Source of the DNA: Candidatus Peribacteria bacterium
GTDB lineage: Bacteria; Patescibacteriota; Gracilibacteria; UBA1369; 2-02-FULL-48-14
Length of the DNA: 32,025 bases
NCBI GenBank assembly: GCA_943354505.1
Contig: CALRCE010000012.1
Location: forward strand, 1-32,025
Direction of reading: 5' to 3'
The notes beneath the pieces were generated by a model. The model had not been told where the DNA came from. It did no database searches and saw only the letters and a program-made list of their open reading frames with translations. The stretch's first letter is position 1. The number at the start of each line of letters is the position of its first letter. The position numbers and the translations under genes are program-made. Shown piece by piece: positions 287-30,100 of the stretch.

Positions 287-1540
287 ATGTTACTCACCGA
301 AACACTCAATCAATGGAAAGGTCTACTCGAACGCGAAATGCGTGGGGAAAGACTGAACCTCGAACCCGGCTATGCGGAGGCGTATGCAGAGTGGAAAAAA
401 ACAAAAGAAGAAGTTTTGCCAAAACTCTCTGCTGAAGAACGAGTTCAGCTGTTCTCAGACGATCTCGCCGACATGGCTCAAAAGAAAATGGAGCAACTCA
501 TCTCAAAAAAGTGGATGGGTGGAGAACAAAAACAAACCCTCAAATCCGCAGCACAACATGGAGACCTCTGTTTGGTGAGCATGGACGACGGGAAGCATTT
601 CGACAAAGCGCTTACTTTAGAAGAACTTCAAAAATTGGATCCTCTTCAACTTCGATTCTTGTCACCCACCCTACAAAGTGTCACGAACAAACCCGAACAA
701 CTGAAAGAAGAGCAGAACTTGCTGCACGTTTCCAAGAACTTAAGAGCCAACCACTGTCTTGTGGAACGCGGTTACGTTGAAAATCACACCGTGCATGTGG
801 ACGTGGTGCATCAAAAATCAGATGCTTCCGAAGTCGAAGTGGATTTGCGAAGCCCATCGACTATTTGGAACTACGTCTTTACGAAGAAAGACGGTTCAAA
901 AGAAAACGTGCAAGAAACTCAATTGCCAGAAAAGTTTGGAGTCATCGCACCCGATATTTCACCGGACTTGATCACACCCTTGAACTCCATTTATTTGATG
1001 GGCAAGAAGAAAGAAGCCAACACGGAACAAGCAAACGCTGCCATGAAAGCAGCGGCCGCCAGTTACAGCACAGTGCTGGCCATGGATCAAATGCAAGCCG
1101 CCCAATTCAGGAACAAGGAAGCGCAAATTTTGGCTTTAAGTCAGAACGGAGCCACTTCACCCACTCAAAACCCAGATTTGAAACGCGCCGTTGCACAAGA
1201 ATTGGTCTTCAACAAAGTACAAAACCTCACAGCAGCCGCCAATCGATTCACTACCAATGTCATCGAGTCCAAAGCGGCAATGGTGGCGAAATTTGCCGAA
1301 CAACAACAAAAGATGCAAGACCAAAAACAACGCTACGCCCAAGCCGTTCAAGCTCAGGCCATCGCTCAAAAACAAATGTGGGACAAACAACAGGAACAAA
1401 AGAAAAAACAAAAAGAAGCCTTCGCTTCCGCACAAAAAGTCAGAAAAGTAGCCGCTGCCGTAGGGTCCGCCGTAACAGGTGGAGCCATCGGTGGATTTGG
1501 ATTTGTAGGTTTTTGGATCGCTCACCTCAACGCAAATTAA
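287..1540 (+). CDS. Coiled-coil protein with C-terminal hydrophobic segment
   Basis: A 417-residue protein I do not recognise. The N-terminal 240 residues are mixed and soluble-looking. About residues 245-385 are Ala/Gln/Lys-rich with long helical, probably coiled-coil, character (repeated Ala-Gln and Lys-Gln runs). Residues about 388-412 form a Gly/Ala/Phe-rich hydrophobic stretch that could anchor the C-terminus in the membrane. There is no N-terminal signal peptide, so most of the chain would be cytoplasmic. It starts three bases after the preceding stop, and its own stop is one base before the VirB6-like gene, which suggests translational coupling. A membrane-associated scaffold for that neighbour is conceivable but is inference from position only. 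Confidence 0.75.
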   Translation: MLLTETLNQWKGLLEREMRGERLNLEPGYAEAYAEWKKTKEEVLPKLSAEERVQLFSDDLADMAQKKMEQLISKKWMGGEQKQTLKSAAQHGDLCLVSMDDGKHFDKALTLEELQKLDPLQLRFLSPTLQSVTNKPEQLKEEQNLLHVSKNLRANHCLVERGYVENHTVHVDVVHQKSDASEVEVDLRSPSTIWNYVFTKKDGSKENVQETQLPEKFGVIAPDISPDLITPLNSIYLMGKKKEANTEQANAAMKAAAASYSTVLAMDQMQAAQFRNKEAQILALSQNGATSPTQNPDLKRAVAQELVFNKVQNLTAAANRFTTNVIESKAAMVAKFAEQQQKMQDQKQRYAQAVQAQAIAQKQMWDKQQEQKKKQKEAFASAQKVRKVAAAVGSAVTGGAIGGFGFVGFWIAHLNAN

Positions 1541-1541
1541 T

Positions 1542-3752
1542 ATGACTAAAACTTTGAAAAAAATCGGGAACTGGATGTGGAACTATAAAAAATTATTGAC
1601 CATATTTGTAGTCACATTTGCGGTAACCTTCGTGCATCCTGAGTTGGCTCACGCCGCAGAAGAAAGCGACACCGTGAAATCCATGGCCGAACTCGCCAAC
1701 TTAGTCGTGAAATTCTTGAACACACTCTTGTGGCCTCTCCTCATTATCATTGGGGACCTGCTCGACGTGGACATGATCACCGGCCCTGGAATGGAAGAAC
1801 GCCTCATCGCCATTTGGGTGGAGATGCGAAACCTCGTGAACATCGCCATTGCCCTCGTACTGGTGGTCGTGGCTTTCTACAATGTCCTCGGTTTAGGAGG
1901 AGGGGAAGGAGAACTCGCCATCAAAACCGCGCTGCCAAAAATCGTTTTGGGACTCATTCTGGTGAACTTCACCTACGTGGGAGGAAAAGTGATTTTGGAC
2001 GTGGCCAATGTAGGTACGACCATTGCTTTTGCTCTGCCCCAAATCATGGAACAAAGCTCAGACAGCCAGTTCCAGGTGGACGATCAATTGGACAGTTTTA
2101 AAGAAGCAGTGTGCTACCCAGCCGTCACCAAATTGAACAATGGTACCAAAGACGACGAATCCGACGACTGTGAATACCAAAGTTACTACACCAAAACCAA
2201 TGCTCCCATTCAAACCAAGCTCTTCTGTGAGTTGATTGAAACAGGCACTGAAGCCACCACTACCGAAGCTCCAACAACGTGTTCGGCCGTAGAAAAAAGA
2301 GACCCAGGTAAAGATGAGTATGGTGGGATTCGTGAATCGTTAGAATCGCTTTACTTAAAAGACCTCAATAAAAACAACATCGCCATTGTGATGGCCGTGA
2401 ACATGGGTTCCTTAGGTAGCTTAGAACTCTTCAAAGCCGGTGCGGTGGAGAACTTCACCGACCTCACGGTGAACAGCATTTTTGCGCTGGTGATGTACGC
2501 CGTGTTTGCTGTTTCATACATCGTTCTCGCCGCGGTCCTCGTGGTTCGCCTCGTAGTCTTGTGGCTTGCTCTCGCCCTTTCACCCATTGCGGTGCTCACC
2601 TACGTGGTGCCTCAAATCAAAGAATGGTTGGGGGGAGGAGGAGACTTCGCACAAAAAGTCATCAAACACCTCGTGGCGCCCATCATCATTGGGCTCACCC
2701 TCAGCATGGGCTTCATGCTCATGGATGGATGGAGTGTGATTTCCAAAGACTCAATCAGTGTCTACTCCGACACCAAAGTCAGCGACGTGATCAGCAGTGA
2801 ATTCCTCGTATCAGGAATCGACGACTTACCAAAACTCATCTTAGCCATCGCCAGCGTGGTCGTGATTTGGATGGGAGTCTTTGCCGCCGCCAGCGACACC
2901 TATGCCGCTGGAATCACCGACAAAGTCAAAGACTTTGGAGGCACAGTCAAAGATGCGCTCTTCAACGCACCAATGCTCATGCCTATGCTCCCCATCAGTG
3001 TGAGTGGAGAAGACAAAGAAGGAATGTCACCCATGGCCCTCAAGACTTTGCTCACCGGTGCAGTGGGTCAATTCGCCAGTGGAAACTTGCTGCCCAGTGA
3101 GTTGAAACGCCTCAGCGAAGCCGACAGTCCTTTGGTGCAGTTTGCTTTAGGGAACGGTGGAGAAAGAGAGAATCCAATGAAAGCCAAGACGAAGGTGGAA
3201 GAAATGCTGGGTGAATTGAAGGATGGCGATGACATAAGCAGCACTAAAGCTCGTGAATTGGCCGGCTATCTAGCCAGCACCATCATGGGAGGTACGATGG
3301 ACAAAAAGGACAAGGATGATATGTCCAAAGCATTGATTGCACTAAAAAATAACCCAACCGCCCCAGGTAGAGAGGATCTTCAGCGCATTATAAATACCTA
3401 TGCTGAAAAGAAAGGTGAGGATGGCAAAGTCTACGGAGCACAAGGTCTAAACTTCAATCCTTCTGATTTGAGGGAATTAGGAACTCTTCAGATCAAACCA
3501 ACAGAGGAATCCGATAAACCTAAGGAGGAAAAGCCTAAGGACGGAGAAAAGCCAGCAGGAGACAAACCCAAAGGTGATGCACCAGCCGCAGACAAACCAG
3601 CAGATCCACCAAAGGCGGATAAACCGGTAGACAAACCAGAACCACCTGCACCTCCGGCTCCGCCTGCACCACCAGAACCACAAGCACCGGCTCCAGCAGA
3701 AAAACCAGCACCCCCTGAAGCCCCAGTAAAACCAGAGCCAGAATCTAAATAA
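1542..3752 (+). CDS. VirB6/TrbL-like polytopic membrane protein with proline-rich tail
   Basis: A 736-residue membrane protein. Residues 1-39 form a signal peptide ending in AHA before AEE. Hydrophobic segments follow at about 55-75, 95-120 and 128-165. An extracytoplasmic loop at about 175-265 carries several cysteines. A second membrane cluster at about 285-470 contains an Arg followed by a long hydrophobic run into an SPIAVLTY turn, typical of VirB6/TrbL channel proteins of type IV secretion systems. After about residue 500 the chain is soluble and ends in a disordered Lys/Pro/Ala tail (about 650-736, PEPPAPPAPPAPP-type). It lies in a tight cluster with the coiled-coil protein upstream. 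VirB4 or other T4SS components are not visible here, so the family call rests on topology and the SPxA motif. Other multi-spanning secretion proteins are possible. Confidence 0.55.
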   Translation: MTKTLKKIGNWMWNYKKLLTIFVVTFAVTFVHPELAHAAEESDTVKSMAELANLVVKFLNTLLWPLLIIIGDLLDVDMITGPGMEERLIAIWVEMRNLVNIAIALVLVVVAFYNVLGLGGGEGELAIKTALPKIVLGLILVNFTYVGGKVILDVANVGTTIAFALPQIMEQSSDSQFQVDDQLDSFKEAVCYPAVTKLNNGTKDDESDDCEYQSYYTKTNAPIQTKLFCELIETGTEATTTEAPTTCSAVEKRDPGKDEYGGIRESLESLYLKDLNKNNIAIVMAVNMGSLGSLELFKAGAVENFTDLTVNSIFALVMYAVFAVSYIVLAAVLVVRLVVLWLALALSPIAVLTYVVPQIKEWLGGGGDFAQKVIKHLVAPIIIGLTLSMGFMLMDGWSVISKDSISVYSDTKVSDVISSEFLVSGIDDLPKLILAIASVVVIWMGVFAAASDTYAAGITDKVKDFGGTVKDALFNAPMLMPMLPISVSGEDKEGMSPMALKTLLTGAVGQFASGNLLPSELKRLSEADSPLVQFALGNGGERENPMKAKTKVEEMLGELKDGDDISSTKARELAGYLASTIMGGTMDKKDKDDMSKALIALKNNPTAPGREDLQRIINTYAEKKGEDGKVYGAQGLNFNPSDLRELGTLQIKPTEESDKPKEEKPKDGEKPAGDKPKGDAPAADKPADPPKADKPVDKPEPPAPPAPPAPPEPQAPAPAEKPAPPEAPVKPEPESK

Positions 3753-3764
3753 TAAAACCAAAAC

Positions 3765-3793
3765 TTTACAAAAATAAACAATGATGGTACAGT
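3765..3793 (+). promoter_or_regulatory. Possible promoter upstream of the 1237-residue gene
   Basis: TTTACA (3765-3770) and TACAGT (3788-3793) are 17 bp apart, a fair sigma70-type match. The -10 box overlaps the 5' strand of the outer stem of the structured region that follows. A transcript from here would begin near 3800 and lack that stem, whereas read-through from the VirB6-like gene would include it. Sequence match only. Confidence 0.3.
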
Positions 3794-3914
3794 CACCCTC
3801 CCACGAAAGTGGATCCATGGACGGTGATTGCGAGGCGAGAGTCTGCTCAGTACGCACAAAGTGCGCAACTAGAAAACTGAGCTACTCCCACCTCTCGCTC
3901 GAGAGGGCACCATC
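3783..3914 (+). ncRNA. Structured leader RNA candidate (nested multi-helix element)
   Basis: The gap between the VirB6-like gene and the next gene folds into nested helices. The outer stem is GATGGT 3783-3788 with ACCATC 3909-3914. Arm 1 pairs AGTCACC 3791-3797 with GGTGATT 3823-3829 and encloses a CCAC-GAAA-GTGG hairpin (3801-3812). Arm 2 pairs 3831-3841 with 3892-3901 (one bulge) and encloses GCTCAG/CTGAGC (3845-3850, 3877-3882) and a CGCAC-AAA-GTGCG hairpin (3853-3865). The 3' strand of arm 2 can instead form its own hairpin, CCTCTC-GCTC-GAGAGG (3891-3906), so two exclusive folds exist, as in a riboregulator. I recognise no known RNA family. The pairing is symmetric, so strand is inferred from gene direction. 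Confidence 0.4.
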
Positions 3915-3926
3915 ACCACAAAAGCC

Positions 3927-6900
3927 ATGATCCGACTCCGCCATCCATATCGGGACTTCCAAAAAAACCTCTTCCTCGGGGAAGAAATGGTTTTGCATAT
4001 GGCCGATACACCAGATAGCGACGACGGTGACGACACAGAACCACCCGCAGCTTCCGGCGGAGGTGCCGGCGGTGCAGGAAACCCTCCAACAGCACCCGCT
4101 GGACCCGAAGAGCCGATTTTCGAAGCACCAAAGGATGGAGCGCAAGCGAGTACAGGCACCGCCAAACCTAAATTCCAACCAAAAAAGAAGCCTTTGACGA
4201 AAAAGGATTTGGAAGAACAATTTGAGGATGAACAAGAATTGGCCGCCGCAAAAGCCAAGGGCACAGGAGAAGAGAAACAAGTGGTAAAAAATATATACGA
4301 AAAGGGTGCTGAGAAAGGTCTTTATAGAAATTTAAAAAACGTAGTAAAAGACTCACCCGAATTGGATGCAAATGAAGAATTTGAAACCCACTGGATCAGT
4401 AAGTTAGGGGACTACAACGGAATCCAAAACCAAATCGACAGTCTAGTAGAAAAGAAGAAAGTTTTGTCGGATCCAAAGTTTATAAAAGACAGCCCTAATT
4501 TCCAGGCTGAATTCAAAAAAACTTACCAAGAGTTGTTGGCCACCATGGATCAAGGTGGGCTAGAAATCAGTCCGGAAACTCGTAAGTTGTTCAGTGAACA
4601 AGCCAAGGGTCTTGCTTTAGAACACGCAAAAGTGGATGGAGAGGATCAAGATCTAAAGGATCCAACTGACCCTAGAGGAAAACGATTAGTCCTTGAAAAA
4701 GGACCCGTCATCAAAGCCATTGATGATGTGCTTAAAGTTCTCATGGAAAAACGACGAAAACAGTTTTTGGAATTGATGGACTACATGCTCGACAACTTAA
4801 AACGTCGCATCATCTTCTTGATTGAAAGGTGGCAGGTGGACCCTCCAAAAGGCTACGAAGACGTTCAAGAAGAATGGATCGAATACTGTGTTGAACTTTT
4901 AGAGACTTTAGATAAAACCGATTTTAAAGGCATCGATCTAAGCAAACCCGACTTTCCAGAAATGGATAAACATTTCGGGTTGGCCAAGGATTGGTGGTAT
5001 TCCGTTGCACTTTTTGAAGACACCTACAAAGATTTTCACAATGCAGGGAAAGAAGAGGTCTCAAGAGATACTCTCCAAGCACAATTCAGAGACCTTGAGA
5101 AAAATGCTCAAGAGAAACTAACGGAAGAGAAAGTCCATCAGTACCAAGAGAGGCTCGATGCAGTGACGAGTGAGATCGACAAATTGATTCCTGAATTGGA
5201 AGCAAAACTCAAAGACAAGTCTCTCGACAAATCGGAAAGGGAAATGCGAGTAAGTGAAATTTTCTCCATGAAAAAAACGAAGGAGACTCTTTTGGAGAAG
5301 AGAGACATTAAAAAACTGGTCAACGACACACTCTACAGTGAAGACGTTCTAACGACTTTTGAACGATCAGGACAAAAGATTGATATTAAAAAAGGTTTGA
5401 AGCATCAATTGGCTTTCTTCGATTCAGCTCCGCTGGATTCTCAAGAACGCCGTCTCTTGTTGCGTTCCATGAACGATGGAATGAAAGAGATGAAAACTCA
5501 GTTCGAAAACATCGAAGTGGAGTCCAATGTTCAATTCGTCTCGTCTCTCGAAAATCTAAGACTCTACCGTCAGAACCTAACCAAAATAGAAGGACCAGTC
5601 AGCAACGAAGTCATTTGGATCAATCCTTTTGAAGCCTGGGGTCACGTGTGGCATTCGGTCACCACCACTATTAAGGGGAACGTAGAAACAGAAGCCAAAC
5701 GTGGCGCCGGTTACCTGCAAAAGCAAGGGACCAAGTGGATGGAGAAAGTGCCTAATCCGACCAACAACCAGGTCATCAAATCCTTCAAAGAATTCTCTGC
5801 AAACGGAGAACAAGAAGCCGAACACGCCGAACATGGACGTGTGGGTGACATTCAAAAAGGGTACGAAGGTTTCAACACGGAACATCTTTACCACCTTGCC
5901 AAAGAAACAAACGATCGTTGGGAATTCAAAGCCTGTTTGAACTTGCTTGCAGATCGTGGACGTATCAACTGGTACGACGACTGGATTTATTCTCAACTCA
6001 ACAAGTGGCAAAAAACCGTCAAGCTTCCGACCGATCCGAACTGGCACCGAACTTACATCACGGCGTCTGAGGACATGCTGCGTCAGGCCTTTGTTTATAT
6101 CTACCGTGTCACAGATGACTTTAAGAACCTAAAAAACAAAAACACAGGTTCTTGGGAATCCAAGAAAGGAGAATTTAAAAAAGGATGTGGACTCTTAGCG
6201 GCAGAAAAAGATGGATTGAAGAGAGAGGCAGATAAACTGATCGATAAATATAAAGAAGATCACAAAAATCATGTGCATTTCTCAAAAGCAGATCCCATCA
6301 AATATGAGGCCATCATTGAATATGCGATTGAACAAGGAAAGATGCAGGGAGAAGATCGTATGTACTACATCAACCAAGGGATTGCAGAAGGCTTCTTGCC
6401 CTTCGACCGAGGAGTCGAACTCACCAAACTCAACAACACCTATCCTCCAGTCGATCGTTACGATGCGCCCACTGCCCGTGGTCAACGTCCTAGTATCTTT
6501 GACGTGAAAGAATGGGCCTGTCACGACAAAGTCACGAATATTTACGATGTGTTTGAAACACTCAGTGACAATGCAGCAGCCAATCAGCGTGCCAACAAAA
6601 CTATTTCTCAAGGACAAAACAGAGTGGATCATGACGACGCTCCAATGCTCGCAGGTCACATCGATGCAGAAACCTTGCAGCGTATTTTGAGCGCCAACGG
6701 ACAAGGAGGATATGGGTTGCCAGCCACCGGTCTACAGAGTTTGGTGGTGGGACACGAACTGTGGCTCGATATGTACGCTCATCGCTTCAAAGACAAGAAA
6801 AAAGAATTCAACGATGCCCAGCTCAGCCGTTTCGTGACGATGTTCATGCGTTTCGATGGGATCACGAGTCGCCAAATGTACGCCAATCAAACAACATTCT

Positions 6901-7640
6901 GGCGTTTGGATGACAGTGTGGCCAAAAGTGAAGAGCCTCGTGCAGTTGGTGCCTATACGAATCTGTTCGGTCACGAGAACTCGAGACCATCGAATAAAAT
7001 CAACGACTACATCGGTTCAGTAAAGGGTTATTTGGAAATCTTAGATTTTGATCCCAACTTTGCTTTAATCAAAAAACTCAATAATAAAGAACTCAAATCC
7101 CCCGATAAGATCCGCTCATTCATTGTAGGCTTCAAGAACGAACATGGAGACGAAGCAGCCAAGAAAATTTTTGGAGAACCTCCAATCGATAACATTGATA
7201 AACTCTATGAAGTGGCCGTACCTGCCTATGTAAACTACATCACAGAAAAGCATTCGAGTCGTATACAAAAAATGGTCTCTAAAATCAACAACGACCATAA
7301 GAAGGTTTGGGATGCTCAAGATGTAGCACGAAAAAAAGCCGAACACGATGGACGAAAACCATCCGACAGCGAAACCTCTTTGACCTATCGTTTGCAACAA
7401 GTGGCAAATAAGCAAAATGCAATTCGCCAACAAGCTTACGGTCAAGCTCAAGGTAAAAAGGACGATGGACATGGTCATCACGGAGATGATCACGGGCATG
7501 AAGAAGCAGGCCATGGAGGCGCAGCTCACCATCGTCAACAAGCCTACGACGACGAAGACAAAGAGGAGGCAGCACAACGCAGAAACGGAAGATGGTCCTT
7601 CAGTCGAAGAGACCACCGATCTTCAAGAGCCACCTACTAA
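3927..7640 (+). CDS. Large protein of unknown function, acidic N-terminus, His-rich C-terminus
   Basis: A 1237-residue soluble protein with no signal peptide or clear membrane span; I do not recognise it. About residues 25-80 are disordered, acidic and rich in Pro/Gly/Ala. Residues 90-550 are highly charged and helical with probable coiled coils. Residues 550-1130 are more globular and Trp/Tyr-rich. The end (about 1180-1237) is His/Gly/Asp-rich, then Arg/Ser-rich, and may bind metal or nucleic acid. The longest reading is given. ATG 3987 or 3999 may be the true start, because 3927-3985 still contains hairpin-forming sequence (CTTCC-TCGG-GGAAG) and the protein from 3999 begins with a typical acidic disordered leader. 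It follows the VirB6-like gene and overlaps thrS tail to tail by four bases. It may be a cytoplasmic partner of the membrane protein, by position only. Confidence 0.75.
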   Translation: MIRLRHPYRDFQKNLFLGEEMVLHMADTPDSDDGDDTEPPAASGGGAGGAGNPPTAPAGPEEPIFEAPKDGAQASTGTAKPKFQPKKKPLTKKDLEEQFEDEQELAAAKAKGTGEEKQVVKNIYEKGAEKGLYRNLKNVVKDSPELDANEEFETHWISKLGDYNGIQNQIDSLVEKKKVLSDPKFIKDSPNFQAEFKKTYQELLATMDQGGLEISPETRKLFSEQAKGLALEHAKVDGEDQDLKDPTDPRGKRLVLEKGPVIKAIDDVLKVLMEKRRKQFLELMDYMLDNLKRRIIFLIERWQVDPPKGYEDVQEEWIEYCVELLETLDKTDFKGIDLSKPDFPEMDKHFGLAKDWWYSVALFEDTYKDFHNAGKEEVSRDTLQAQFRDLEKNAQEKLTEEKVHQYQERLDAVTSEIDKLIPELEAKLKDKSLDKSEREMRVSEIFSMKKTKETLLEKRDIKKLVNDTLYSEDVLTTFERSGQKIDIKKGLKHQLAFFDSAPLDSQERRLLLRSMNDGMKEMKTQFENIEVESNVQFVSSLENLRLYRQNLTKIEGPVSNEVIWINPFEAWGHVWHSVTTTIKGNVETEAKRGAGYLQKQGTKWMEKVPNPTNNQVIKSFKEFSANGEQEAEHAEHGRVGDIQKGYEGFNTEHLYHLAKETNDRWEFKACLNLLADRGRINWYDDWIYSQLNKWQKTVKLPTDPNWHRTYITASEDMLRQAFVYIYRVTDDFKNLKNKNTGSWESKKGEFKKGCGLLAAEKDGLKREADKLIDKYKEDHKNHVHFSKADPIKYEAIIEYAIEQGKMQGEDRMYYINQGIAEGFLPFDRGVELTKLNNTYPPVDRYDAPTARGQRPSIFDVKEWACHDKVTNIYDVFETLSDNAAANQRANKTISQGQNRVDHDDAPMLAGHIDAETLQRILSANGQGGYGLPATGLQSLVVGHELWLDMYAHRFKDKKKEFNDAQLSRFVTMFMRFDGITSRQMYANQTTFWRLDDSVAKSEEPRAVGAYTNLFGHENSRPSNKINDYIGSVKGYLEILDFDPNFALIKKLNNKELKSPDKIRSFIVGFKNEHGDEAAKKIFGEPPIDNIDKLYEVAVPAYVNYITEKHSSRIQKMVSKINNDHKKVWDAQDVARKKAEHDGRKPSDSETSLTYRLQQVANKQNAIRQQAYGQAQGKKDDGHGHHGDDHGHEEAGHGGAAHHRQQAYDDEDKEEAAQRRNGRWSFSRRDHRSSRATY

Positions 7641-12463: not shown

Positions 12464-13354
12464 ATGCAAGTTGTCCTCTCCATCCTGCTCGCCTGCGTTC
12501 CAGCTTTCATCTGGGGAGTGATTTTTTACAAGAAAGACCCCATCTATAGGCCAAAAGCCCTCCAGACCTTTCTTTTAGGGATGTGTTCCGTGGCCCCCAT
12601 CCTGCTTTACAAGTGGAGTTGGGCTTACCTCCCTCAGGTCAACATTTTCAACTACACAGACAACTTCAAGACCGATCTTTTCGCCTTCACCGACCACCTT
12701 TATTTGCCGATAGGTAGCCTCTTTGCCTTCATGTTCGTGGGAGTGATTGAGGAATACATGAAGAACCTTGTGGTGCGCAAAGCCGACAAAGGCTTTTTTA
12801 GAAACATCGACGACGCGATCGAATTCTCCATCATGTCCGCCCTCGGTTTTGCCTTCGTCGAAAACATTCTCTACTTCTACTACATTTGGGAGTACCAAGG
12901 GGTGGAAGTGCTGCTCGTCTCCTTTGTATTCCGCGCACTTTTTTCCACCTTTGCCCACATCCTGTTCTCGGGCATTTACGGCTATTTCTATGGTATGGCC
13001 TACTTCGCCGACCCACTATGGTCCGAAGAGCAGCGTAAAAAGCGCAGCCCGGTGATCAACCTCTTTCACACGGTGTTTCACTTCAAACGCAACCGCATTT
13101 TTGCCACCGAAAAGCTCAGCGAGGGTCTTTGCATCGCTGTTTGTCTGCACGGTCTTTTCAACATTTTGCTCGAGATGAACCTCACCTTCTTCATGGTGCC
13201 CTTTCTCGTGCTCGGTTACAGCTACCTCGACCATCTTTTCAAACAAAAGGAAAACCTCAAAGCTTACGGTTGCATTGTGGGCGAAAACCGCAGCGACTAC
13301 CTGCACCAATGGACTTGGAGCAAGAAGTCCGAAGTTAAAGCAGCGGCCCGTTGA
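12464..13354 (+). CDS. PrsW-family intramembrane metalloprotease
   Basis: A 296-residue polytopic membrane protein of the PrsW family (CAAX-protease/ABI clan). All family motifs are present: EEYMK (Glu96, Glu97, Lys100), GFAFVENILY (Glu133, Asn134), FRALFSTFAH (Arg157, His165) and HGLFN (His229, Asn233). These place Glu and His metal ligands inside the membrane. About seven to eight hydrophobic segments are visible. In Bacillus, PrsW cleaves anti-sigma factor RsiW; no anti-sigma gene is in the window, so the substrate is unknown. A strong extended -10 lies just upstream. The basic C-terminal tail (KKSEVKAAAR) is cytoplasmic by charge. Confidence 0.92.
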   Translation: MQVVLSILLACVPAFIWGVIFYKKDPIYRPKALQTFLLGMCSVAPILLYKWSWAYLPQVNIFNYTDNFKTDLFAFTDHLYLPIGSLFAFMFVGVIEEYMKNLVVRKADKGFFRNIDDAIEFSIMSALGFAFVENILYFYYIWEYQGVEVLLVSFVFRALFSTFAHILFSGIYGYFYGMAYFADPLWSEEQRKKRSPVINLFHTVFHFKRNRIFATEKLSEGLCIAVCLHGLFNILLEMNLTFFMVPFLVLGYSYLDHLFKQKENLKAYGCIVGENRSDYLHQWTWSKKSEVKAAAR

Positions 13355-13382
13355 TTGACTGTTGTCTTAGAAAGCGTATAAA
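13355..13382 (+). promoter_or_regulatory. Putative promoter of the proline dehydrogenase gene
   Basis: TTGACT (13355-13360) and TATAAA (13377-13382) are 16 bp apart. The -10 box runs into the first possible ATG (13382), so a transcript from it would begin downstream of that codon. This favours ATG 13409 as the start. Confidence 0.55.
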
Positions 13383-13408
13383 TGAGGCTTTTAAAGATAG
13401 CATCAAGC

Positions 13409-14335
13409 ATGGCTTTGAACACAGCCAAAAGGCAGGGAGAGGAAAAGGATGCCTACCGAAAGTTTTCAGACGCCACTCGCGAGGCAGCGATTCAGTTGAA
13501 GGCCGCTCAAAGGGCTGAGCGAATCCTCTCAAGTAAGGGAGAGCTCGTCATTTCGCATCCAAGGGATTGGATTCAACAGGAGTGGACTCAGATCGCAGTG
13601 CCCGCCAATGGATTCCGTCCAGAGGATAAAGAGTTGGATGAGACAGACCCATTCAGGCAGGCCGTATCGGACGCCGTCGTTCAACTGTTAGGAGGCGCAC
13701 GTTTTTTTGAAAGCCCCGGCCCCGGGATGCCAAAGACCTCGTTGGAAGCAAGCCGAAGCAATGCCATGGTGGAAGCCATTGCAACCGATGTGAGAGCTAA
13801 GGTTGAAGAAGTTGAAGCCGCACAACCCATCCGTTTTGCTTGGGAAGATTTTATGAATGGGGTCATGGGCCCGGTCATGAACTTAAAAGGATACAAGGGC
13901 GATAGAACTGAAACAGGAATAGATGGAGAAACGGGGGATGAGAAGTCAAACCCCCTCTGGCGCGCCATCAAACTCTTTGTTCAACACGGCACGGGCGCTC
14001 TTTTTGAAGAAATTGAAAGAGAAGAACAAAGCCGTGGGGCTGAAGAAGACTCCACCGAAAACCGGCTCTTGGATTCAACAATCGTGGATGGGCTTCTGCA
14101 CTTTTTCTCCGCACCCTTTGTGGCGGGTGAAACCATTGATAAAGCCTTTGAAAATAAATTTTTAAGGGCTTTAATCGAAGAAGGAATCGAAATCACCGTG
14201 GCCCACGAAGTAGAATCCACCTTCGATACGGATGAGGCTAAGACCAATTACGAGGACTTCTTCAAATGCATGCGCCACTTAGCGACTGAAGAGGGGGGGG
14301 TCCTGACGAACCTCTTAAAAAGTACATGTCTATGA
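13409..14335 (+). pseudogene. Proline dehydrogenase, N-terminal part (frameshifted at a G8 run)
   Basis: The first reading frame of a broken proline dehydrogenase (PRODH) gene. About 230 N-terminal residues have no family I know and are charged and helical. From about 14118 the frame matches the start of the PRODH barrel: FVAGETIDKAF, then LIEEGIEITVAHEVEST and a helix ending ATEEGG. The frame then enters a run of eight Gs (14293-14300), drifts out of the family pattern and stops at 14333-14335. A -1 shift at the G run continues smoothly into the next frame. ATG 13382 is also possible but overlaps the -10 box of the promoter. This is either a real mutation, phase variation, or a homopolymer error. 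Whole fused length would be about 600 residues. Confidence 0.7.
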
Positions 14336-15198
14336 AGCTCTCTGCTTTAGGCTTCTTCCCGGAAGACCCCGAAGTGAGTGGCACGCTTCCTGAACCGTGT
14401 TACGACCAATTGAAGGAAAAAATGGCCACCTTGGTGGACGAAGCCATAGAGAAAGGAGTCTTCATTCGCATCGACATGGAATACTTCATTCACAAAGATG
14501 CCACCCTTCGTCTTTTCAAAGAATTGTTAGAAGAAAAACCCAAGAGAGCGGAGCATTTAGGGATGGTCTTCCAAGCGTACTTAAAAGACAGTCTTCAAGA
14601 CGCGCGTGAAATGGTGAAGTGGGCCAACACGTTCAAAACGCAGCATGGTTTCCGTGTTTCCTTGCGCGTGGTGAAAGGGGCCAACATCGCAAAAGACGCC
14701 GAGCATGCAAGACAGGGTCTGCACGCCAGCTTAACAGACCCAGCTACGACCTGGCATGGCCACCCTCGAGACGCCATGGACGCAACAGGGGCCGACCGTT
14801 GGGCACCTGGAATCACTCCGGTGGCCAAAGATCTAGAGACCACTCAAGAACAATTCATTGAAATTATCAAACTCTTTGAACAAAACACAAACTGTCTAGA
14901 CGTGGCGTACGGCACCATGAATCCGGACACCATCGCTCACATCATGCAAACGTGGTTGAGCAACGGAGAAGATTTAGAGGAACGACAGATCCAAACCCTA
15001 TTTGGCATGTACAATTCGCTCTCCCTCGCACTCAAAACCTTTGTCAGCCACCGTCGCTACGTGCCCTACGGCCTCCTCGGGAAGATCATCGGTTACATGA
15101 GGCGCCGTTTCATCGAACTGCAAAGATCTCAGGGTGGGAAACAAATGATGAAAGTTCGTCACAACGATACGGAACCTGGAGTTCATCCCCTGAATTGA
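14326..15198 (+). pseudogene. Proline dehydrogenase, C-terminal catalytic part
   Basis: Continuation of the PRODH gene in the -1 frame. PRODH oxidises proline to pyrroline-5-carboxylate with FAD and passes electrons to quinone. Family landmarks in order: YMSMKLSALG with the conserved Lys (from 14323), GVFIRIDMEYF (about 14458-14490), VFQAYL (about 14568), LRVVKGANI (about 14662), LFGM (about 15000) and HRRYVPYG near 15050, with the paired Arg that bind the proline carboxylate. The Tyr codon of the first landmark lies before ATG 14326, so this frame alone lacks the first strand of the barrel and would not be functional. The usual ATHN segment reads AYGTMN. No pyrroline-5-carboxylate dehydrogenase is in the window. 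The calling of PRODH is by motif pattern. Confidence 0.7.
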
Positions 15199-15222
15199 CT
15201 CTTCCTTAGAAATCCCTAGAAT
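15195..15222 (+). promoter_or_regulatory. Putative efp promoter
   Basis: TTGACT (15195-15200) and TAGAAT (15217-15222) are 16 bp apart. The -35 overlaps the stop codon of the proline dehydrogenase gene. It has the same -35 and spacing as the promoter at 13355. The leader to ATG 15247 is about 17 nt with no Shine-Dalgarno sequence. Confidence 0.55.
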
Positions 15223-15246: not shown

Positions 15247-15813
15247 ATGGCTCAATCCATCACCGATCTTAAAGTGGGAAGCGTCGTGAACATCGACAAT
15301 GCTCCTTATCAAATTTTGACCAACTCCTTCATGCGCACCGCTCAACGTAAGCCGGTGATGCGCACCAAGATGCGAAACCTCATTAACGGAAGCGTGATGG
15401 AAAAGACCTTCATCGCCGGAGAAAGCTTCGAAATGGCCGATGTCGCTCGCAAGAACGTGCAATACCTCTACAAAGACATGACCGACGCTTACTTCATGGA
15501 TCTGGACAACTTCGAACAATTCACCTTCACCCTCGAAGCCCTCGGAGACATGGTGGGTTACTTGCAAGATGGAAAGGAAATGACCGCACTTTTGTACAAC
15601 GAAAAACCCATTTCCATTCAATTGCCTCCCAAAGTCGTGCTGAAAGTGGTGGAAACCACTCCTGGCGTTCGTGGAGACCGTGCTCAAGCCGGCAGTAAGC
15701 CCGCTAAAATGGAAACCGGCGTCATGATCAACGTGCCTCTCTTCGTCGAAGAAGGGGAACTGATCCGCATCAACACCGAAACCGGTGAATACGTGGAACG
15801 CGCAAACGACTAA
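15247..15813 (+). CDS. efp: Translation elongation factor P with atypical tip loop
   Basis: A 188-residue EF-P with three beta-barrel domains. It relieves ribosome stalling at polyproline stretches by entering between the P and E sites. The N-terminal domain, the central TFTLEALGDMVGYL region and the C-terminal domain with the EF-P signature around TTPGVRGDRAQAGSKPA are intact. The domain I tip, KPGKG in E. coli with modified Lys34, is RTAQRKP here. Gln33 aligns with Lys34 and is followed by Arg34 and Lys35, so the known Lys modification (EpmAB) is unlikely at that position. The proline-rich VirB6-like tail and other proline runs in this window are plausible clients. A terminator follows. Confidence 0.96.
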   Translation: MAQSITDLKVGSVVNIDNAPYQILTNSFMRTAQRKPVMRTKMRNLINGSVMEKTFIAGESFEMADVARKNVQYLYKDMTDAYFMDLDNFEQFTFTLEALGDMVGYLQDGKEMTALLYNEKPISIQLPPKVVLKVVETTPGVRGDRAQAGSKPAKMETGVMINVPLFVEEGELIRINTETGEYVERAND

Positions 15814-23549: not shown

Positions 23550-24133
23550 TTAGACAAACATTCGTGAGCGTAACAAGGTAAAGCATTGGACATTTCGGTG
23601 AACTGCCCGGGGAAAGTGCTCTGGAACAAAAGCGACATGTCTTTGAGGTCCTCGTTCATCGCTTTGAGTCCATCCACAAACTCAAAAGTCGTTTTGGAAG
23701 TAGTGGAGCCGGCAAGAAACTGGGTGAGAATATTGCGAGAATATTCAATGATCCCATCCCGCACTTTGCGGCACGAAGAGAGTTCGGTGTTGGCAAAAGA
23801 GACCGTTCCGTTGTAACCGCTCACCTCTGCATAAATATTGTAAAATTTGCGAATGGTATCCTCCACATAGCGATAGAAAAGCAAGGCGTTTTCAAACTGC
23901 TCACTCGTCGGGGTATCCACTTTTGTATATTGATCAATAAAGGACTTGTACTCATCAAGCAGCGCGAGGCTGCCTTGCGCAAGGCTGTAGGCGCATTTGT
24001 TATCGGCTTCCGCTTCAGTCGCCGTTTCTGTGGAAGTACTCTCATCCGCTCGCACACCCACGAAACTTCCTACAAAGAAAAGAAGCAGCAGGGCAACTTG
24101 GAAAAATTGTTTTTGAGTGAATTTTTTAATCAT
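23546..24133 (-). CDS. Secreted helical protein with C-terminal cysteines (second gene of surface operon)
   Basis: A 195-residue exported protein. The signal peptide ends VRA before DESTST, followed by a Thr/Glu-rich linker and a helical body with cysteines near residues 47 and 120. The C-terminus holds two cysteines close together (PCYAHECLSK). Its last 50 residues resemble those of the 228-residue protein: an acidic/aromatic start, Leu spacing, then FPGQF. It overlaps the giant SLH protein gene by ATGA and is therefore coupled to it. No family recognised. Confidence 0.8.
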   Translation of the reverse strand: MIKKFTQKQFFQVALLLLFFVGSFVGVRADESTSTETATEAEADNKCAYSLAQGSLALLDEYKSFIDQYTKVDTPTSEQFENALLFYRYVEDTIRKFYNIYAEVSGYNGTVSFANTELSSCRKVRDGIIEYSRNILTQFLAGSTTSKTTFEFVDGLKAMNEDLKDMSLLFQSTFPGQFTEMSNALPCYAHECLSK

Positions 24134-27100
24134 GGCGCGGTGGGGTCAGAAACAGTAATGGAGTTACTCACTCCGAAGATTTCGCCCAGTTCATTCTGGA
24201 TTATAGCAAACACAGAGTCTCCCGGTCTAAGTTCCGCTTCGTAATCCACTTGTGAAAGACAAGGACAAGTGGTGCAGGCTTCGCGAACCGCATAAATTCC
24301 AGGGGAAACACCCGCCAAGGAACCGTCATCAAAGTCATCGGTGGAGTCCAGAGGGCTGGTGCCGCGACCCACCTCGGTTCCATCGTCAATGCCTCCGGCA
24401 TCCGTGTCTGGGTTGTAAGGATCGCTGCCGTACAAGGTTTCTTCATCGTAGTTGATGAGTCCGTCGCCATCGCTGTCCAAATCAAAACAATTGTAGGCTT
24501 GGAGCACGCGCACCGACATTTCTACAAATTCGTAACGAGTCATCACGTGATTGGGATCGGCCGCTTCGTCCGCCGTCAGAATGTAGTTGGTGGTCCCAGC
24601 CGTGGTCTCAGCAGTCATATAAGGGCTCAAATCTTGAGCAATATCGATGTAGGGCTCGTACCAAGCTCCAGTGGTGGTAACCTCCGGCAAAGTAATGATG
24701 CCTTGTTGATTGAGCGCCTCCAAAACAATCTTGGTGGCCTCCGCACGAGTGATGGAGTTACTAGGCTTGAAAGGAGCCAAACCAGCAGCATCGGTCTCAC
24801 CCAAATAACCCGTGATCAGTCCCGAAAGTTGAGACTCCTTGGTGTAAGCGTAGAACCACAGCGAAGTCGTCAAAATATCATTGAAAACAGTGGGGAGCAG
24901 ATAAGCTTCGTCTCGTGGAACGATACAAAGGATGCTCAAGATGATCTTGGTGAACTCCGCACGATTGATGTTGTCGTCGGGCTTGAAGTACTGTTTGCCG
25001 TCGATTTCGTAACCTTCCAAAACGCCGCGTTCCACCAACTCTGAAATCTTGGAGTAGAGGGCATCGTCGGAACTCAAATCTTCAAAATAAAGGTGAGTGT
25101 CTGCCGCGAGGGAAGCGTGATCGTCTCCGATCAAACTAGAAGCAGGCAAGCCCAAGTCGTCTGTGGTTTCAATGAAGATCTCGTCAGAACTTCCAGGCCA
25201 AATTTCCATTTCTAAGGATCCTTCGTCGTAAACTTCTAAGATCAGATTTTCCTCCAGTGAACTGGCCTCGCGTCTCACCACCGTGTAGCGGTCATCAAAC
25301 ACCGTGATATTGCCGCTGTTGCTCAGCATGAAGTCCAAGTTGCCAAGGTCGTCGTGAGCGGTCACGGAACTCAGTCCAAAGTCATAACCGTTGGGATCAG
25401 AGACGCTGTAAACCGTCACACGATTGAAGGAGGAGAGATCGTATTCAGAAAGAGGAGCTCCCAAACGTGTGATGGGTAAACTGGAGTCGGTGACGAAGAT
25501 GAAACTACCCAGCACAATGCCGGTGAGTTTTTCATACACCGCCAAATGAGAAGGCCAATCCGCATCGGCGGTCAGAACGGTCACGTCATAATCGTCGTCC
25601 AGCACCATCACTTGTTTGGTGGAGGAATCAAATTCTGCAATCGCGGTTCCGTCCGTGTTGTAGACGGCGATCAAGTCAGAATCGTCCATGGCGAGCACAA
25701 TGTTGCCCTCTTCATCCGTGGTGTAGTCGCCCAATTCTTGCCAAGCGCCATCGCGTTCACGTACCAAAGTGAAGGGTAGGGCAGGGCTGAGAGGATCCGT
25801 GGTGCCCGTGACTTCGGTCGGAGTGGCCGAGGCCAATTGAAGATCCGGAACGTAAATGTTCACATTGATGATGCGACTGGCGGTGTTGCCGGCTGAGTCC
25901 ACGATGTAAACCGTCACAACTTTTGGATCGGTGTTGTCGTAAGGGCCAATCACCGTGCTGAGACCGATGCTTTCTTCGTCGTTGTCAAAAATTCCATCCA
26001 AGTCCGCATCCACACTCGCGTCCAAATCCCAGTAGGCATCGATGATTTCACTGTTGCTATCAAAGGATTGTTCCGCAGACAACTCCATGGTGGAGAAAAT
26101 CGCCAAGTCCACCACGCCGTCACCATCCTCATCTTCTCCGCCATCCACGACCACCACGGGCTCAGAATCGTCGCCACAAATTTGAGGATTGAGCAGAATG
26201 TTGTCCGAAAGCGTTCCAATCGTGCCATCGTCGTAGAGCGCTTTACCAACAGTGTAATACGCTCCATTTTCAAGTTCCACTTGAGCAGAAGGACTGTCAG
26301 CGCTGAGCAGTCTATCCATCACAAAGAATTCTTCTTTATCCAAGTCCAGCACAGCACCTTCGGAAGTGGTCAAAGTCGCCGTGGCGGTGCTGCCTTCCAA
26401 GTCCACCATTTCTTCAGGCAAAATCATCATCCCTTCGCTCAGAGTTTGTTCTTCCACCACATCCTCTTCGTCGATCATATAAGCACTTCCACTGTCCACT
26501 CGAATGGTGCGGTCGGAGGCCCCGCCAAAGGTGGCCACCGTGTAAGCGGGAAGGGTCAAGGTCGCCGAGCCTTCTTCGTAAGTCAATTCCAAAACAGTGG
26601 GGCTGAGCGTCTGAAGCACAACACCCGCAGAAGTTTCGAGTTCACCATTCTCTTGAATCAAAGTTCTTTGCCCAGCGTTCTTGAGCGTGACCTTTCCACT
26701 CACCGCTGTGGCCACCAAACGACTCGTCGCCAAGTCGGGGAGAGTGGCATCCCCCTCGGTACTCGTTGTAGCAGCCTCCACTTCTGAGTCCTCCCACGCA
26801 ACACTTTCTTCCTCCGCAAGCAAAAGCAGGCGTTTGATATTTTCATCGGGTTCGGCTTGTTGAGCGTCCAAAGAATCGTACATAAAGAACTCATAGCCCG
26901 TCGCTGACCCTTCGCTTGTTTGTGAAGCGTCAAAAGAGAAGCTGGTTTCTTGGTAATTGTTGGTGCCTTCTTTGAAGTTGTGCATGGAGCCCACCGAAGG
27001 AGCTTCCTCCGCCAGAGCCACCTCGCTCGGATCGGTGCTCACGTATTCCAAAGTGGGACTTTCGGTGTAGTTTTCTTTGATGTAAACATCTCCACCCAAA

Positions 27101-30100
27101 GAGTAAACCACATCCTTGTCGCCATCACTGTCCATGTCCATGAAGAGGATGTGTGTGAGCTTGTCGGCCTCAGCGGCGTAAGCGGTGAGACGTGTGCTGA
27201 CTCCCGCATCGGAGTTGTAAACATAAAGACCCGTGTTGAAGGCTTTATTGGATTCACCCAAGTTGAGCCCTTCCAATTCTGGGGCCCCACTGGAAGAGGC
27301 GAGGTCCACTTCTTCATCCGAAGAAGGAGTGAGAAGCGCGTCCAAGTTCCACTCACTGGCGGTGCTGTAACCATCATCGCTGGTATTGCCCGCTACTTGG
27401 AAGGCAGACGCGGTTTGCCCGCCTGCTAAAGTCTGGAAGAACTCATCGTCGTCCATGGCGAGCAAACGGGTATTTTCGGCGTCCAAATCTTCAACATAAC
27501 TGATCAAAGAAGACTTGAGCCCCAGCACGCCCACGAGCGGCGTGTCTTGAATGCTGGCCAGGAATGCTTGGTCCATCGGACCTTCTTTTAGTATTTCATC
27601 GTAGCGATGGAGCAAAGGATCATCCAAAGCCAACAAGCGTTGACCAGCAGTCAGTTGCACTTCTTCAGGAAGCGTGGAAGACCAATCGTTCACTTGAGTT
27701 TGCAGCGTATCCATGATGCCTTTGAGGGCCATCAAATTCTCGGCCACCATGGGGTCTTTACCATACAGTTGAGCCACTTCCACGGCAGGGTGAACATAAG
27801 AACTTTCTCCTGTATCCACAGTGCCCTCTCCACCTGCATCCACTCCCTCACTGCTGTCTGCACTCGCATCCACCTCTGCCTCGGCCTCGATGCTGGTTTC
27901 TTCTGCAGCCGTGGTCAAAATATTCTGAATATCTTGAGCCAATTCTTCCAAGGGGTCATTGATGGACTTAGCCACATCTTGGCTGAGTTCTTCGCTTTGA
28001 TCCCCTAAGTTTTTGAAGAGGTCATAAAGGGGAGTGAAGTCCGCCGTCAAATTGAGGTAGGTGTTGATCTCCACCCGTTTCAAGAAATCCAAACTGAACG
28101 AAGGCCAGTTCACCGTGACGGCCAAGTCAAACGGCAACATGATGCCTCCTGGGCGTTCCGTGATCTCCTCAATACGTGACTTCAGCTGGCTTTCAGGCGT
28201 TGGAATAAATCCCGATCGAATGATACAGATGAGTTTGAGCACACTGCTGGCAATTTGCAAAGCCGCCTTCAAGGTGGGATCCAATTCAGGAATAGAAGGA
28301 GGGGGGGGCAGCGAAGGCAACTGAGGCAAGGTCAGGGCAGGAAGCTGCGGCAGTTCAAGATCAAAATTGAACTCCGGCAGCGTGGGGATATCGATATCCA
28401 AGTCCAGATCCACATTCAAATCAAATTTTGCAGAAGGGAAGACCAGGCGCGGCAGCTTAGGAATGTTGATGCGCTCTGGAATAAACTGAAGGTCCGGCCA
28501 AAGAATATCCACGCCCGCCTGAATGTGAGATACATCGATCACGATGTCCGGCAATTTTGGCATCTCGATCACAGGGAACTCCGGCATGAACGCAAAGAGG
28601 CTGAACAAGAGTTGCAAACCGCTGAAGCGCTGATTGGTACATTTATCACAGGAATCCATGAGATCCGCAGAGATGTCGATGAGGATTTGCCAGCCATCCA
28701 CAATCTTTCGGAGGTCCACCACAAACTGAGCCCAGGCCTCAATGCGCTGAAGATTTTCGCTGATGTATCCCGCCGTGTAATCCAAAATGGCATCCAAGTA
28801 ACAAATGATGATTCTGGCATAATCCGCACCCAGCGTTCGTATCTCTAAAATCTGTTCGGGAATCTCTCCATAACTTTCTAAAACAGCCATATTCGTCTCC
28901 ACGGCCGCAATCGCCTCATCGATCACTCCCACGAACTCGTTGTAGACTTCCTTTTCAGCATCCGAAACGATCTCTCCGCCCTGTTCACGCAAATCGAACT
29001 GATCCTTAAAGGCTTGGAAGTCCGTTTTGGTGTCCACCACCCAGGCCTGCATATCGGCTTGAAAGATTTCAATTTCTTCCTTGGTCAGCCAAGGATAATG
29101 GATGTCGACTTTCTCCGTTTTAATATCAATGAGCGGCAAAGAGTTGGCCATGTTCAGCCATTTTTCAAGATTCAAAATACCACTCGTCATTTTTTCGACT
29201 TTGCTGTCTTGATCCAAATCCACCGCGTTGCCACTTTGACTGTCCTTGGCCTTTTGACTGAGTCCGGTGAACTCGGTGGTGAAGCTCTTGGGATCCGGGT
29301 AAATAAAAGTGATGTCGGGCAAATCCAACATTTTAAAGAACTCATGCTTCTGCGCTTTCCACCATTCTGTGAAAATGGACGGGAAGCCGGGAATATCGAT
29401 GTTCGTGCTCAGCGAAACCGGCGGTTTATACGAATCAAAAGAAGAACTGCCAAGTCCACTGTCTGCGGGCTCAGCCATCGTGTCCGTGGCTCCACCCACA
29501 TTGATGGCCACCGTGCCATTCTCTTCCACAAAATCACTGGCCTTGGAGAGCGAGTCCGCGATGAAGCCGTTGATGGCGTCACAAATGCCCAGGGCTTGCA
29601 GAATAGGAATATTGAAGGCGTAACACTGCCCAACGGCATAAGGAGCCACACACACGGCAAGCGCCAAACCTAAGGTGGTGGTGTAAGCCATGTAGAGGCG
29701 GAAAACGCTGGTGGCTTGGCAGGCTGCGGCGGTGCACACATAACTGGGATTGGGCATGATCCCAAACACAGGAGTTCCCACATCAAAACCCACCACGGTA
29801 CCAAACATAGGTTCGTGATAATTCCCTGTTGCAAGAAAAGCGATGCTGCCGGGCAAAGCCAAACAGCCTCCATTGCACGTGAACATCGCCACCACTTCTT
29901 CCACCTTGTCGGTGAGGCCAGAGATTTCGTCGTCCAAAACAGAAACTTCTGCATCGATTTCAAGCGTCGCATCCTCACTCAACACCACATCGTCTTCATC
30001 AGGATCCAAATCCAAAGACGGATCTAAAATCAAATCAGACCCGGCATTAAAGCTATCGATGGTGTTGTAGAGCCCATCGTTGTCGTCGTCGTTGTCGCTG

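Follow-up and report, generated by a model that had tools for sequence, protein, structure and literature searches.

Why does a stretch of DNA from a Candidatus Peribacteria bacterium spell the parts of one enzyme in two reading frames? The stretch, here called the window, spans contig 12 from end to end (32,025 nucleotides) of a metagenome-assembled genome (MAG) of 1.16 Mb that is 97.7% complete and comprises 43 contigs. Flanked by prsW (12464-13354) and efp (15247-15813) are two overlapping open reading frames (ORFs), 13382-14335 and 14290-15198, whose frames differ by -1. An earlier note on this DNA proposed that they are a proline dehydrogenase (PRODH) gene split at a run of eight Gs (G8). 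Is this one gene, and where does its frame change? If it is one gene, was it broken by mutation, was the run miscounted, does the run work as a switch or a recoding site, or do the halves function as two proteins?

A single enzyme gene across two frames

The two frames together encode one PRODH, interrupted at the G8 run. Frame 0 extends on the plus strand, as do all features of the gene, from an ATG at 13409 to a TGA ending at 14335, with a second in-frame ATG at 13382; based on the ORF, the alignment with orthologs, and codon usage up to the run, 13409-14335 carries an N-terminal extension and barrel strand 1. Based on the ORF and on Pfam and PutA alignments, the -1 frame (14290-15198) carries strands 2 to 8 with the conserved Lys, Asp, Arg, Tyr, and Arg-Arg positions. 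The joined protein, a concatenation of both frames made for searches only, matches PF01619 (Pro_dh) with 117.6 bits (E value, 9.5e-34) against a curated Pfam cut-off of 27 bits, and the best stretch, residues 253 to 436, spans the joint at about residue 296. The C-terminal ORF alone scores 113.1 bits (2.3e-32), such that by score both it and the joined protein belong to the family; joining the frames strengthens the match over the C-terminal part alone, and the N-terminal frame by itself matches no Pfam family significantly. PutA alignments start about 60 residues before the joint. The earlier note fares well here: all the motifs that it quoted lie in the frames to which it assigned them, shifting by -1 at the run gives EEGGGPDEPLKKYMSMKLSALG, and the two comparisons that it proposed, with PF01619 and with orthologs, show the family match running across the joint and both halves aligning with the same unsplit orthologs, such that neither outcome that would have refuted the note occurred.

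The position of the frame change can be bounded without homology. Stops at 14287-14289 in the -1 frame and at 14333-14335 in frame 0 restrict the change to 43 nt, 14290-14332, a segment that includes the run (14293-14300). A codon usage model trained on 187 long ORFs from other contigs of the genome scores a change at 14303 best, and points within 14291-14324 score almost as well; most blocks up to the run have positive scores in frame 0, and most blocks beyond it have them in the -1 frame. Thus, the claim that frame 0 loses the PRODH pattern at the run is borne out to within about 10 nt by a measure that uses no homology. The downstream frame is fully open, and its coding quality equals that of the upstream frame, with no hint of long decay. 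The run alone is not unusual, given that the window holds two G8 runs where shuffles predict 0.93.

Uninterrupted orthologs and the type of enzyme

Two genomes of the same class carry the full-length protein, N-terminal extension included, as a single ORF of 647 or 659 amino acids (aa), with 34% and 28% identity to both halves. The first of these, from Candidatus Peregrinibacteria SI054_bin37 (JABIJZ010000008.1), the nearest named relative of the gene, aligns end to end over the same extension and PRODH barrel (34% identity); in contrast to the gene studied here, its 647-aa ORF is uninterrupted and has no G/C run of 5 or more. Neither ortholog has a G run at the joint. The joint falls in a length-variable loop between barrel strands 1 and 2 that is 6 residues longer here than in either ortholog. 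Because both orthologs are distant, tests of conservation at the G8 site are weak.

K310, D356, R420, Y551, R566, and R567 are invariant across the three orthologs, and the PutA alignments cover these positions, which in PutA are those of the catalytic site. The scores for bifunctional PutA (NF008869, 61.2 bits) and Thermus-type ProDH (NF045947, 60.2 bits) fall below the respective cut-offs of 747 and 500, and the protein ends after the PRODH part. As far as sequence comparison can tell, the gene is best explained as a monofunctional PRODH whose N terminus is extended by some 230 residues. It shares the barrel motifs VKG, IDME, QAYLKD, YxPYG, and RR with PF01619 proteins such as Geobacter PutA (4nm9) and Thermus ProDH (2ekg) but differs from them in having no aldehyde dehydrogenase domain, in its extension of ~230 residues with no Pfam match, and in being split between two frames. 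An AlphaFold2 model of an ortholog, built from a four-row alignment, is of low confidence (mean pLDDT, 50); the Foldseek matches listed for it are all PutA/PRODH and carry little weight given their low TM-scores.

A slippage indel as the favored explanation

What, then, put the frame change there? With moderate confidence, we favor a single, ordinary, recent slippage indel in the G tract that broke the gene and left the enzyme off as assembled. In this model, polymerase slippage within the variable loop between strands 1 and 2 would have altered the length of the tract and so shifted the frame of roughly 290 codons at the 3' end. The predicted product is truncated at about 308 residues and would lack most of the active-site barrel; in the population or strain that was sequenced, the gene of this uncultured, reduced-genome, Peregrinibacteria-like bacterium would thus be switched off. 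The mutation looks recent, since the downstream part is still open and has normal codon usage. This same lack of decay counts against a mutation, in that it would also be expected from a consensus error or from productive frameshifting.

The case resembles the singleton frameshifted genes of the GeneTack survey (PMC3711429) in showing one homology-validated transition in a single genome and no conserved recoding signal; that survey used complete genomes, whereas ours is a MAG. Of the four causes offered in the earlier note, a slippage mutation is the one we favor, a consensus error is possible, and programmed frameshifting has found no specific support. As it stands, the locus is a matter of annotation: a pair of predicted ORFs, of which one has no recognizable domain, is a single broken PRODH gene. 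Homopolymer frameshifts are common, and only a tract length that varies within the population or a protein that spans the joint would turn this one into a notable example of switching in a candidate phylum. Our literature search found nothing on PRODH in Peregrinibacteria or on phase variation at homopolymers in the candidate phyla radiation, and its one Patescibacteria match was off topic.

Is the G run miscounted?

The main rival to a slippage mutation is a consensus error: the assembly of the metagenome would show the G run at a wrong length, and the organism itself would carry an intact gene. We regard this as somewhat unlikely. An open downstream frame with normal codon usage is what such an error would leave behind. 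Databases are known to record G tracts incorrectly (PMC9187656), and sequencing errors often account for singletons that BLAST supports (PMC3711429). How good, then, is this assembly at the level of single bases? A comparison with a genome of the same genus covered about 707 kb here and about 806 kb there. Among 262 matched genes, there were four apparent frameshifts in this MAG and none in the reverse direction. Two of the four lie at N10 scaffold gaps, one sits in sequence that we take to be ribosomal RNA rather than a gene, and one is an extension upstream of a start codon and thus outside the gene. With each candidate otherwise explained, genome-wide indel errors were rejected. The finding of no other unexplained frameshift in the genes compared argues that the assembly is good at the base level, which lowers the odds of an error here but does not remove them. 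The N10 gaps also suggest a short-read assembly, and such assemblies usually count 8-base runs well.

Other long runs point the same way, with one exception. Away from gaps, coding sequence keeps its frame across G/C runs of 7 or more, including the other G8 of the window, at 28301 in an ORF of 2625 aa. The sole exception, which favors a miscount, is a C10 in lysS, the longest G/C run seen in the MAG, located in a garbled stretch beside an N10 gap. This C10 interrupts the lysyl-tRNA synthetase gene (contig 9, 25794-25838; L041, about 1995-2040), and the interruption is probably an assembly fault.

A switch, a recoding site, or a split enzyme?

If the tract length is real, could the tract do something useful? 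We consider it unlikely that, in this Patescibacteria lineage, the G8 tract either switches a metabolic enzyme on and off reversibly or allows it to be made through -1 slippage. Taking first phase variation, in which the run would change length reversibly in the population and turn the enzyme on and off, we judge it quite unlikely. In its favor, the G8 tract lies within a coding gene whose downstream frame is otherwise intact, and switches based on G-tract slippage exist (PMC9187656). Nonetheless, the tract is missing from both orthologs, eight Gs make a short tract, G8 runs arise by chance in the window, and PRODH, as a metabolic enzyme, is not a typical surface target.

Could -1 ribosomal frameshifting or transcriptional slippage instead yield the full-length enzyme from the sequence as assembled? 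Frame 0 reads GAG GGG GGG GTC at the run and contains the slippery heptamer G_GGG_GGG (14293-14299) in the correct frame. A slip by -1 would allow perfect re-pairing and leads exactly into the conserved frame. However, the downstream RNA folds no better than its shuffles (z scores of 0.18, -0.80, 0.95, and 0.76), and a stimulatory RNA structure was therefore rejected. Moreover, both orthologs, albeit distant, are single-frame genes without a slippery tract, and there is no obvious reason for two products. Based on these observations, we hold productive frameshifting to be improbable.

It is highly improbable that the halves are separate subunits that reassemble into a barrel, coupled in translation through an ATGA overlap of the frame 0 stop with an ATG of the downstream frame (14332-14335) and with a further in-frame ATG at 14326, given that no Shine-Dalgarno-like sequence lies at the usual distance (few genes in the window have one), that these ATG codons encode residues inside the conserved KxMSxK stretch of strand 2, and that the orthologs are unsplit and have V or C at the residue in question.

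A rare gene and its setting

Returning to the slippage mutation that we favor, what would the loss of this gene mean to the cell? The genome has a second PRODH, short and intact, on contig 31 (L001, 1462-2271); no aldehyde dehydrogenase (PF00171) was detected anywhere in the genome, and a match to P5C reductase is below its cut-off. Given the second PRODH and the absence of an aldehyde dehydrogenase, losing the copy studied here may cost little. The gene was found in only 3 of 353 genomes of the class. Across the phylum, our search returned only partial matches in ordinary shorter ORFs of 276 to 401 aa; homologs were absent from the viral contigs searched, and plasmids gave only distant PutA/PRODH. 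Its absence from the same-genus genome suggests that this rare accessory gene is dispensable in the genus.

In that same-genus genome, efp directly follows prsW, and no remnant of PRODH was seen. PRODH has been either gained here or lost there. A putative PRODH promoter (TTGACT..TATAA, 13357-13381) was recognized by eye in a three-way alignment of this region, the efp upstream region here, and that of the same-genus genome; it resembles the promoter-like site of efp at 15195-15222 and was not picked up by a consensus scan. If functional, it would place the transcript start near 13388 and thereby favor the ATG at 13409, with which the starts and N termini of the orthologs also align. Where the same-genus genome has one promoter-like sequence between prsW and efp, PRODH here sits between two similar ones, and these promoter-like repeats (ATTGACT..TA.AA, 13352-13382 and 15192-15222) suggest that the gene was inserted next to, or deleted between, short flanking repeats.

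A misbinned contig was considered and rejected, in that thrS, SMC-like ATPase, prsW, efp, and uvrA follow one another as they do in the same-genus genome, with 69 to 87% identity. Between efp and uvrA, other ORFs take up about 2.4 kb in that genome (L040, 13200-15500) versus <100 bases here, a difference in content that marks the efp neighborhood as a variable spot. No Rfam elements were found. Elsewhere in the window, three large ORFs (417, 736, and 1237 aa) at 287-7640 have no Pfam matches and keep their order in the same-genus genome at about 27 to 50% identity. On the minus strand, 24130-32007 holds the 2625-aa ORF, which has FG-GAP and SLH matches and whose frame runs unbroken over its own G8.
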